DNA from: Sphaerochaeta associata
GTDB taxonomy: Bacteria > Spirochaetota > Spirochaetia > Sphaerochaetales > Sphaerochaetaceae
Reading direction: 5' to 3'
DNA length: 64,000 bases
Assembly: GCF_022869165.1 (NCBI RefSeq)
Contig: NZ_CP094929.1
Coordinates: 2,480,001 to 2,544,000, forward strand
The position numbers and the translations under genes were made by a program. The notes beneath the pieces are model-generated. The model made no database searches and was not told the DNA's origin. It saw only the letters and a list, made by a program, of their open reading frames with translations. Positions 31,645 to 42,268 of this stretch are shown piece after piece (the stretch's first letter is position 1; every line of letters begins with the position of its first letter).

Positions 31645-31678
31645 GCAAGGGGAAAAAGTTTTCAACCCCTCCCCTTGC
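31645..31678 (+). terminator. possible terminator after mscL
   Basis: GCAAGGGG and CCCCTTGC form an eight-base stem with an 18-base loop, but no T-run follows and the tRNA -35 overlaps the right arm. Weak call. Confidence 0.3.
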
Positions 31679-31703
31679 AACCCATTTCCATTTACGGTAC
31701 TAT
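31675..31703 (+). promoter_or_regulatory. promoter of tRNA-Arg
   Basis: TTGCAA (31675-31680), 17-base spacer, TACTAT (31698-31703). The start should lie about seven bases before the mature tRNA. Confidence 0.65.
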
Positions 31704-31716
31704 CGATTTTGCATTT

Positions 31717-31790
31717 GCTCCTGTAGCTCAGCTGGATAGAGCACTTCCCTCCTAAGGAAGGGGTCGTGCGTTCGAATCGCGCCAGGGGCA
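31717..31790 (+). tRNA. tRNA-Arg (anticodon CCU)
   Basis: A 74-base cloverleaf to the discriminator A73. The acceptor stem is GCTCCTG with CAGGGGC (one G-U pair), the D arm GCTC/GAGC, the anticodon stem CTTCC/GGAAG with loop CTCCTAA, and the T arm GTGCG/CGCGC (one G-U) with TTCGAAT. The anticodon CCT is at 31751-31753 and reads AGG. CCA is not encoded, so a nucleotidyltransferase must add it. It stands alone with its own promoter and terminator. Confidence 0.96.
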
Positions 31791-39764: not shown

Positions 39765-40562
39765 CTAGACAAGGAACGTACAGATGAATACCCCTTTTTG
39801 CCCGGGATTGGGGGAGGTGAACAACCCCCAGGAAGCAAGACCGTCTCCTTTTGTCTCGAAGTGCAGCTCTTTTTCCCCTTTAGGGGAAAGGATGAACCGA
39901 TAGGTGGACTTCGTCTTGAACGAAAGGGAACCGACCTTGGTCCGAACCTCGACCGCATACCGATCGATTCCATACTCAATGGAGGTCACACTCCAAACAG
40001 ACGGTTTGAAATTTGTTGTGTTGAAAACCTCGGCATTGGCCCGGTAGGCTTTCTGCAGTTCGCTCTCACCTTCGAACGGAATCTCCACATTGACAAGCTC
40101 CTGACCCAGCAATGGGAAAATCGTATAGGAGCGGTCATATATGCCCTGGATGGTGTAATAGGGCTTGGTATAGGAAACCAAAAAGTCCAGCTGTCTGCAC
40201 TTTCCCTTGTTGTCCTTGTCGGTAAGGTTCACCCAGCGGTAACGGCCTTCCCACCCGGAAGTTTCACACTGCACCTTGGCCGCCGCTACATCGACATTGC
40301 CTGTCTTGCGGGCGGCGACAATCACTTCATAGGTTCGATGACTTTCCAAAGGCTCCTCGTTTGAACCCACGACGACGCTTTCAGAGCGTACCCGCTGCAC
40401 AGGATTTCCATCCACGTAGACATCGTAATAGTCTGCACCGGCTACCGCCTTCCACTGCAAATGCAACTGGTTGGGATATGCTGAGATCAACTGCACATCC
40501 AGAGCCGAGGCAAAGAGAGGCAGGGCACAGATAAGCAACAGGCAAATTACCGCTTGTTTCAT
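39765..40562 (-). CDS. exported protein with fibronectin type III-like domain
   Basis: A 265-residue protein with signal peptide MKQAVICLLLICALPLFASA. Residues about 22-100 resemble a fibronectin type III repeat (VQLISAYPNQLHLQWKAVAGADYYDVYVDGNPV, then YEVIVAARKTG). The rest is strand-rich with no family I recognise. It is probably periplasmic or surface-bound. The ATG follows a TACAAT -10 by five bases, so a leaderless mRNA is predicted. It shares a -35 hexamer with the divergent radical SAM gene. No terminator is evident before topA's promoter. Confidence 0.7.
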   Translation of the reverse strand: MKQAVICLLLICALPLFASALDVQLISAYPNQLHLQWKAVAGADYYDVYVDGNPVQRVRSESVVVGSNEEPLESHRTYEVIVAARKTGNVDVAAAKVQCETSGWEGRYRWVNLTDKDNKGKCRQLDFLVSYTKPYYTIQGIYDRSYTIFPLLGQELVNVEIPFEGESELQKAYRANAEVFNTTNFKPSVWSVTSIEYGIDRYAVEVRTKVGSLSFKTKSTYRFILSPKGEKELHFETKGDGLASWGLFTSPNPGQKGVFICTFLV

Positions 40563-40567
40563 ACCTT

Positions 40568-40597
40568 ATTGTAGACACAGCGGTCTCCTAGTTGCAA
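40568..40597 (-). promoter_or_regulatory. promoter of the FnIII-like gene, predicted leaderless
   Basis: Minus strand TTGCAA (40597-40592), 18-base spacer, TACAAT (40573-40568), five bases to the ATG. TTGCAA is self-complementary and also serves the plus-strand promoter. Confidence 0.65.
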
Positions 40598-40620
40598 GAG
40601 TTTGTCATGCCAGCTACTAT
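40592..40620 (+). promoter_or_regulatory. promoter of the radical SAM gene, predicted leaderless
   Basis: TTGCAA (40592-40597), 17-base spacer, TACTAT (40615-40620), then seven bases to the ATG at 40628. Confidence 0.7.
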
Positions 40621-40627
40621 CGGTCAC

Positions 40628-42268
40628 ATGACCATACACTTGATATCCTGCTGCCTCGAAGAGGGAAACCTCAGCTACCCCCTTGGCGCACTCTGCATTC
40701 AAAGCGCCGTACTTTCTCATCTTGAAAACGAGCAGTGCATCCATCACGCTTTCACGCTTGCCGATGATCCCGTTGCATCAGCACAGTCGATACCCCTCGC
40801 TTCCTTGGATGTAGCAGGACTTTCGGTATATCTCTGGAATAGAGGTTGGATGGACACGTTCGCCCTGACCCTGAAGGCCCGCAACCCGTCCCTCCATCTC
40901 TTTGCCGGCGGCCCGGAGGCAACAGCAAATCCGGCATCCTTCGATTTGGGTCTCTATGATTTCCTCATCCTCGGGGAGGGAGAGGAAACGGTCATACAAG
41001 CCCTCAAACACATCAAGGAAGGAAAAATCCCCCGGCTTCCAGGCGTACTCTCCCGAACCAATGCCTTCGGTATCGCACCCAGTCCCAGACTCGACCTCCT
41101 GTCTTCACCGCTTTTGAGCGGTCTTGCCGACCCGTTTCTCTCCCCCGGTGCATCGGTATTATGGGAGATGACCCGCGGCTGTCCCTTCCATTGTTCGTTT
41201 TGCTTTGAATCGCGTGGAGAACGCAGCGTACGGCACTTCAGTTTCGAACGGCTTGAAGCTGAACTCGATTACCTGGTCGCCCATGAAGCAGGAGAGGTCT
41301 ATGTCCTCGATCCTACCTTCAATATGGATAAAAAGCGGACCATTGCCATCCTGGCAATGCTTGAGAAGAAGCAGGCTCCAATCCATTTTGTCTTTGAAGT
41401 GAGGGCCGAGCTGCTTGACAACGCTCTTGCCGATGCTTTTGCCAGAATCGACTGTTCGTTGCAGATAGGCTTGCAGTCGACCGACAAGAAAGTTCTTGAA
41501 GCGGCTAACCGGGTGTTCAAGGCAGACCAGTTCGCCAAGAAAATCCAGCTGCTCAACCAACGTGGCATCGCCTTCGGTCTGGACCTTATCATCGGCCTTC
41601 CCCATGACAGCCTTGCCTCCTTTACCAAGAGTCTGGACTATGCCATGCTGCTCAAACCCAGCAATCTAGACATTTTCCCCCTTTCTTTGCTTCCTGGAAC
41701 CCTGGTCAGCGACCAAGCGTCCTCCTACGGCATCGTAAGCATGGAACAAGCACCTTATACCATTCTACACTCGCCGACGTTCAGTGAATCGGATCTGAAG
41801 CAGGCGATGAGGCTCAAGAGTGCGTGCGACCTCTTCTTCACCCAAGGACAGGCAGGTATGTGGATGCACAAGCTATGCGAGGCAACCGGCCGAAAACCAT
41901 CTTCGCTGCTCACCCTCTTTGATTCCTACCTCTCTTATTATAAGGAGAAAATGAAGCCAGAGGATGAAGAGCCCGATGTATTTACTCTCCAGGAGGCTTT
42001 TGTTGTCAGCCTTCTTAAAAAACTGGGAAACCAGCGCTACCTGAAGCCGATGCTCTCATACATGGAGTTGCATCAGGGAATTGCGTTCTTCCATATGTAT
42101 CAAGAGAGTCCCACCATCACACTATCATACCCGCTTGAGCAGCTTGCACTGCTCGACACTATGTCCCTTGATGATTTTCTGGCATCCCATGCTGAGTCTG
42201 AAGAGATACGGCTCTCCATCCACAGCACCGATGAGGGGGAACTCTATTTTCTTCCTGTCACCGAGTAG
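40628..42268 (+). CDS. B12-binding-domain radical SAM protein
   Basis: A 546-residue protein of the cobalamin-dependent radical SAM class. The N-terminal 130 residues form a Rossmann-like B12-binding fold (AGLSVYLWNRGW; LFAGGPEATANP; YDFLILGEGEETVIQAL). The cluster motif is C185-xxx-C189-xx-C192 in TRGCPFHCSFCFE. FEVRAELLD, CSLQIGLQSTDKKVLEAANR and GLDLIIGLPHD continue the barrel. A C-terminal DUF4080-like region follows. The substrate is unknown; methyl transfer is common in the class. I choose 40628 because an ATG at 40607 falls between -35 and -10 and so would not be in the mRNA. Confidence 0.83.
   Translation: MTIHLISCCLEEGNLSYPLGALCIQSAVLSHLENEQCIHHAFTLADDPVASAQSIPLASLDVAGLSVYLWNRGWMDTFALTLKARNPSLHLFAGGPEATANPASFDLGLYDFLILGEGEETVIQALKHIKEGKIPRLPGVLSRTNAFGIAPSPRLDLLSSPLLSGLADPFLSPGASVLWEMTRGCPFHCSFCFESRGERSVRHFSFERLEAELDYLVAHEAGEVYVLDPTFNMDKKRTIAILAMLEKKQAPIHFVFEVRAELLDNALADAFARIDCSLQIGLQSTDKKVLEAANRVFKADQFAKKIQLLNQRGIAFGLDLIIGLPHDSLASFTKSLDYAMLLKPSNLDIFPLSLLPGTLVSDQASSYGIVSMEQAPYTILHSPTFSESDLKQAMRLKSACDLFFTQGQAGMWMHKLCEATGRKPSSLLTLFDSYLSYYKEKMKPEDEEPDVFTLQEAFVVSLLKKLGNQRYLKPMLSYMELHQGIAFFHMYQESPTITLSYPLEQLALLDTMSLDDFLASHAESEEIRLSIHSTDEGELYFLPVTE

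Follow-up and report, generated by a model that had tools for sequence, protein, structure and literature searches.

Bidirectional promoters (Warman et al., 2021, 2026; PMC12825309, PMC10268837) contain a symmetric core element which engages RNA polymerase in both directions. Binding in one direction excludes binding in the other, and these promoters are often found between divergent mRNAs. In ordinary divergent back-to-back arrangements, two promoters read away from each other and each uses a -10 element of its own. In TA-led leaderless genes (PMC3160421), also described in Leptospira interrogans (PMC5243855), the -10 element is located about 6 nt before the ATG and there is no Shine-Dalgarno (SD) sequence. 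Leaderless genes of spirochetes were described in 6 of 18 genomes, with a mean of 3.9% of genes (PMC3160421), and the map of L. interrogans contains about 440 mRNAs whose leader is shorter than 10 nt (PMC5243855).

We analyzed a short intergenic region of Sphaerochaeta associata which resembles each of these systems in part. It is located in a window of 64,000 nucleotides (the whole stretch of DNA that was analyzed; NZ_CP094929.1, positions 2,480,001 to 2,544,000). In the bidirectional promoters of Warman et al. the -10 element is shared and the starts are 7-25 bp apart (PMC10268837), whereas here the -35 element appears to be common, each direction has its own predicted -10 and the predicted starts are ~66 bp apart. 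Unlike in ordinary back-to-back promoters, the putative -35 elements coincide, so that the polymerase footprints would overlap. In contrast to the known TA-led leaderless genes, both divergent members are predicted to be leaderless, which allows the gap to shrink to about 64 bp. Judged from its sequence, the module may be classed with the bidirectional or the overlapping divergent promoters, as a form whose symmetric element is the -35 and not the -10. A literature search of openly accessible papers returned no named precedent for divergent promoters with a shared -35, which is weak evidence of absence.

Anatomy of the intergenic region

The following features were assigned:
40563..40627, no strand: intergenic region of 65 bp, the whole putative promoter module (direct reading)
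40592..40597, no strand: TTGCAA, palindromic, proposed common -35 (direct reading; 11 of 11 genus sequences)
40615..40620, + strand: TACTAT, predicted -10 of the rightward promoter, spacer 17 (direct reading; TACTATC in 11 of 11)
40568..40573, - strand (ATTGTA on the + strand): TACAAT, predicted -10 of the leftward promoter, spacer 18 (TAnnnT in 11 of 11)
40628..42268, + strand: radical SAM protein, 546 aa, B12-binding-like N-terminal domain, predicted leaderless start (ATG invariant in the genus)
39765..40562, - strand: FnIII-like (weak) protein with signal peptide, 265 aa, predicted leaderless start

A sequence-only reading had described TTGCAA as the -35 element of two divergent leaderless promoters, and its coordinates, hexamers, spacings and 65-base gap proved to be exact base for base on direct reading. 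Rightward, the layout is TTGCAA-N17-TACTAT-N7-ATG with the start codon at 40628-40630. Leftward, it is TTGCAA-N18-TACAAT-N5-ATG, and the start codon appears as CAT at 40560-40562 on the + strand. No SD was found in the window at either ATG (40628 and 40562), and with 7 nt (rightward) and 5 nt (leftward) between TAnnnT and ATG both starts have the form of TA-led leaderless genes. Taken singly, the matches to the E. coli consensus are modest (TTGCAA 4/6, TACTAT 4/6, TACAAT 5/6). A standard consensus scan listed the leftward promoter alone, with 9/12 vs. 0.5 expected per 700 bp. In 200,000 mono-nucleotide shuffles of the 65-mer, a leaderless-spaced promoter was obtained rightward in 0.68%, leftward in 0.50% and in both directions in 0.0055% (5.5e-5) of the trials, and both promoters with a coincident -35 in none (0/200,000). 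A chance origin of the combined arrangement is ruled out by these shuffles. A search against Rfam revealed no structured RNA in the gap; its sole match in the window is a tRNA at 31717-31790. This tRNA is preceded at 31675-31703 (+) by TTGCAA-N17-TACTAT, the hexamers and spacing of the rightward promoter.

The radical SAM protein passes no curated NCBIfam cut-off, and the named records with close relatives belong to Sphaerochaeta and other Spirochaetales. The FnIII match of the leftward protein is weak (E = 0.03) and its signal peptide was called by eye. An earlier start of the FnIII-like gene is excluded, since an in-frame TAA lies two codons upstream of the ATG at 40562. For the radical SAM gene, starts at the in-frame ATG at 40607 and at the TTG at 40592, which overlaps TTGCAA, were rejected because they are not conserved as starts in the relatives. 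In addition, TTGCAA and ATG are 35 bases apart in several relatives vs. 36 bases here, which breaks the frame for upstream starts. Therefore, 40628 is regarded as the correct start.

Conservation within the genus

The genus set was drawn from Sphaerochaeta in the broad sense and comprises 11 distinct intergenic sequences, with radical SAM identities down to 52%. These sequences are related and the lineages are therefore only partly independent. The divergent radical SAM/FnIII-like pair is present in most genus members. The expected conservation of the hexamer in related genomes was confirmed, as TTGCAA is invariant in all 11 sequences, and so are the longer motifs TTGCAAG and TACTATC, always 17 bp apart and followed by an invariant ATG 6-7 nt later. 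In most relatives the palindrome is extended to eight bases, CTTGCAAG. On the leftward side, TAnnnT is located 16-18 bp from TTGCAA in 11 of 11 sequences (per-sequence shuffle probability 0.03-0.10), so that throughout the set a single hexamer has a -10 at a distance of 16-18 bp on either strand. The letters of the leftward -10 vary (TACAAT, TATAGT, TACAGT, TAGTGT, TAGAGT, TACCTT). The same strand carries an invariant TG 14 nt from TTGCAA, where the TG of an extended -10 would be located if the spacing is 17 bp.

The distance from the leftward TAnnnT to the ATG is 5-8 nt in 9 of the 11 sequences. In the other two (L018 and L020) the leftward gene has a short leader of ~ten bases and an SD-like motif (GGAG in L018, GGTGG in L020). 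The gap measures 73-74 bp in these two lineages and 63-66 bp in the other relatives. The remainder of the gap is not conserved, since a DNA search with 101 bp recovered the two nearest relatives alone; most other gap columns vary. The proposal of two divergent leaderless promoters around a shared TTGCAA is thus supported, as the hexamer and both -10 elements stayed in register while the flanking DNA diverged.

In S. halotolerans (L016, downstream of 3126), the FnIII-like gene is degraded to fragments and the upstream promoter letters persist. In the genus members L076, L077, L078, L083 and L084, the flank retrieved with the FnIII-like gene contained no match to the radical SAM protein. Of these, L076 has kept the extended -10 (TGGTACATT) and the leaderless ATG but carries no TTG -35, and TTGCAA may therefore be dispensable for leftward transcription.

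The same gene pair occurs in the sister genus (g4; L085, L086 and L087). L085 shows leaderless spacing at both starts with a gap of 56 bp. Its -35-like hexamers, assigned by eye, cross rather than coincide (TTGCCC rightward, TTGCTC leftward), which suggests that the -35 elements can overlap to various degrees and that exact coincidence is one of these forms. An SD precedes the leftward gene in L086 and L087.

Leaderless starts and -35 hexamers in the genome

The source genome has a size of 3.55 Mb on a single contig, and statistics were taken from stretches totalling 1.66 Mb. A sample of 864 kb showed a sharp maximum of TAnnnT at a distance of 6 nt from the first ATG, with 27 of 576 genes vs. 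~4 expected from internal ATGs. The leaderless share in this sample is roughly 4-5% of the genes, and most genes have an SD. This rate agrees with the published figures for spirochetes (PMC3160421, PMC5243855). When the TTGNNN hexamers in non-coding DNA of the sample were ranked by their enrichment at -35 spacing, TTGACA came first (39 vs. 9.4 at control spacings) and TTGCAA second (19 vs. 9.4). Because of this enrichment and the occurrence before the tRNA gene, it is very likely that TTGCAA is used as the rightward -35. As one-way leaderless controls we used rnz (L143:2064, +) and cca (L140:19267, -), whose promoters are conserved genus-wide. Their -35 is TTGAC[T/C/G] or TTGATT and the CAA half is absent.

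Other divergent gene pairs of the same design

The 170 divergent pairs in the 1.66 Mb were screened for TAnnnT 5-7 nt from the ATG on both sides. ATGs 40-85 apart were found in 24 of these pairs. Double leaderless spacing occurred in 4 of the 170, of which 3 were validated, and control offsets, overlapping ones aside, gave no such pair and once a single one. In the lepB/SUMF1-like pair (L146:17008 - / 17074 +) the gap is 65 bp and both genes are leaderless-spaced. Here TTGACAA carries both -35 elements with an overlap of 5/6 bp, and TTGACAAG is invariant at all intact junctions read across the genus. The transporter/cobT pair (L124:3483 - / 3543 +) is also leaderless-spaced on both sides, with a gap of 59 bp. 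Its -35 elements, TTGTCA and CTGGCA, abut, and each strand carries a TACAAT that hardly varies within the genus. Both pairs are kept genus-wide. The transporter and the SUMF1-like protein were recognized by eye and neither passes an NCBIfam cut-off. A patatin/radical-SAM pair (genome 2473171/2473218) passed the screen and was rejected, as stop codons occur at the would-be patatin N-terminus in relatives. The second half of the 1.66-Mb sample contained no further double leaderless pair, which indicates that the module is rare. The compact divergent module is real and recurring, and the leaderless divergent design gains further support from the genome-wide leaderless signal and from the two additional conserved pairs.

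Proposed mechanism and alternative explanations

The 65-bp gap is probably a minimal back-to-back promoter module in which the palindromic TTGCAA is read both ways and both mRNAs are leaderless. Domain 4 of the housekeeping sigma factor would dock on TTGCAA in either orientation. In the rightward orientation, the polymerase would melt TACTAT and initiate at the radical SAM ATG or no more than one or two bases from it. Leftward, it would melt TACAAT and initiate at the FnIII-like ATG. Both mRNAs would be leaderless and translated without an SD site. The length of the gap would follow from the geometry of the module (about 6+6+17+6+17+6+6 = 64 bp). Occupancy would be exclusive per binding event and initiation rates could compete if either promoter is heavily used, while at ordinary initiation rates both genes would simply be expressed. 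The start sites, the leftward use of TTGCAA, the sigma factor and any competition are what we infer from this layout.

The assignment of TTGCAA as -35 of both promoters is very likely correct for the rightward side and is weaker for the leftward side, where an extended -10 could suffice. Leftward use is suggested by the register, as TAnnnT and the invariant TG hold their distance to TTGCAA. Against two-way use, TTGCAA serves one-way promoters too, and the rightward gene by itself could account for the invariance of the hexamer; moreover, the leftward -10 letters vary and the spacing wobbles between 16 and 18. Alternatively, TTGCAA might be the rightward -35 only. The leftward gene would then be transcribed from an extended -10 promoter which overlaps the rightward one and needs no -35, and the location of the hexamer at a leftward -35 position would be incidental or of minor weight. 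The TG just upstream of the leftward -10, the situation in L076 and the one-way use of TTGCAA all point in this direction. However, the leftward -10 and the TG are in register with TTGCAA in 11 of 11 sequences, the one-way leaderless genes rnz and cca manage without the CAA half and the whole TTGACAA is invariant at the parallel lepB locus, and we consider this explanation rather unlikely. It is highly improbable that TTGCAAG is a transcription factor site instead of a -35. Its palindromic form, seen as the eight-base version in most relatives, would fit such a site, but it is located exactly at -35 for two -10 elements, and TTGCAA is found at the same position before the tRNA gene and enriched at this spacing in the genome sample.

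It had also been proposed that polymerase bound one way should exclude the other, so that expression of the two genes may be mutually exclusive. From the geometry, exclusion probably applies to one DNA molecule at one moment, but not beyond the time of promoter occupancy. Mutually exclusive expression is unsupported, as there is no sign of strong promoters, a switch or opposite functions. A genetic switch at the shared site would be in line with the steric overlap of the footprints and with the maintenance of the gene pair across most of the genus, but an exclusion that acts on single binding events does not amount to exclusive expression. In 5 of 5 bidirectional promoters tested in E. coli, one direction hardly responded at basal activity when the other was weakened, and competition or repression was seen when one side was strongly activated, not otherwise (PMC12825309). 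Since these promoters overlap more tightly and show no basal competition, mutual exclusion is not a fair inference from sequence. Furthermore, the gap shows neither a regulator site nor an inversion element, and the adjacency of the genes is explicable by the shared DNA itself. A switch therefore has very little probability. The long persistence of this gene order may be explained more simply, as any separation of the promoters would break one of them.

Implications

Returning to the reading of TTGCAA as a two-way -35, it is conceivable, though tentative, that Sphaerochaeta keeps a few divergent pairs on one palindromic or near-palindromic -35 of this kind, with each side leaderless and the orientation of the sigma factor setting the ratio of the two mRNAs. 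Bacterial bidirectional promoters have so far been defined by a shared -10. If true, a conserved -35-symmetric module, enabled by leaderless starts, would represent a second geometry and would account for the characteristic gap of ~60-66 bp between some divergent genes. It would also provide a clean test bed for polymerase competition, in which mutation of one hexamer should affect both directions.
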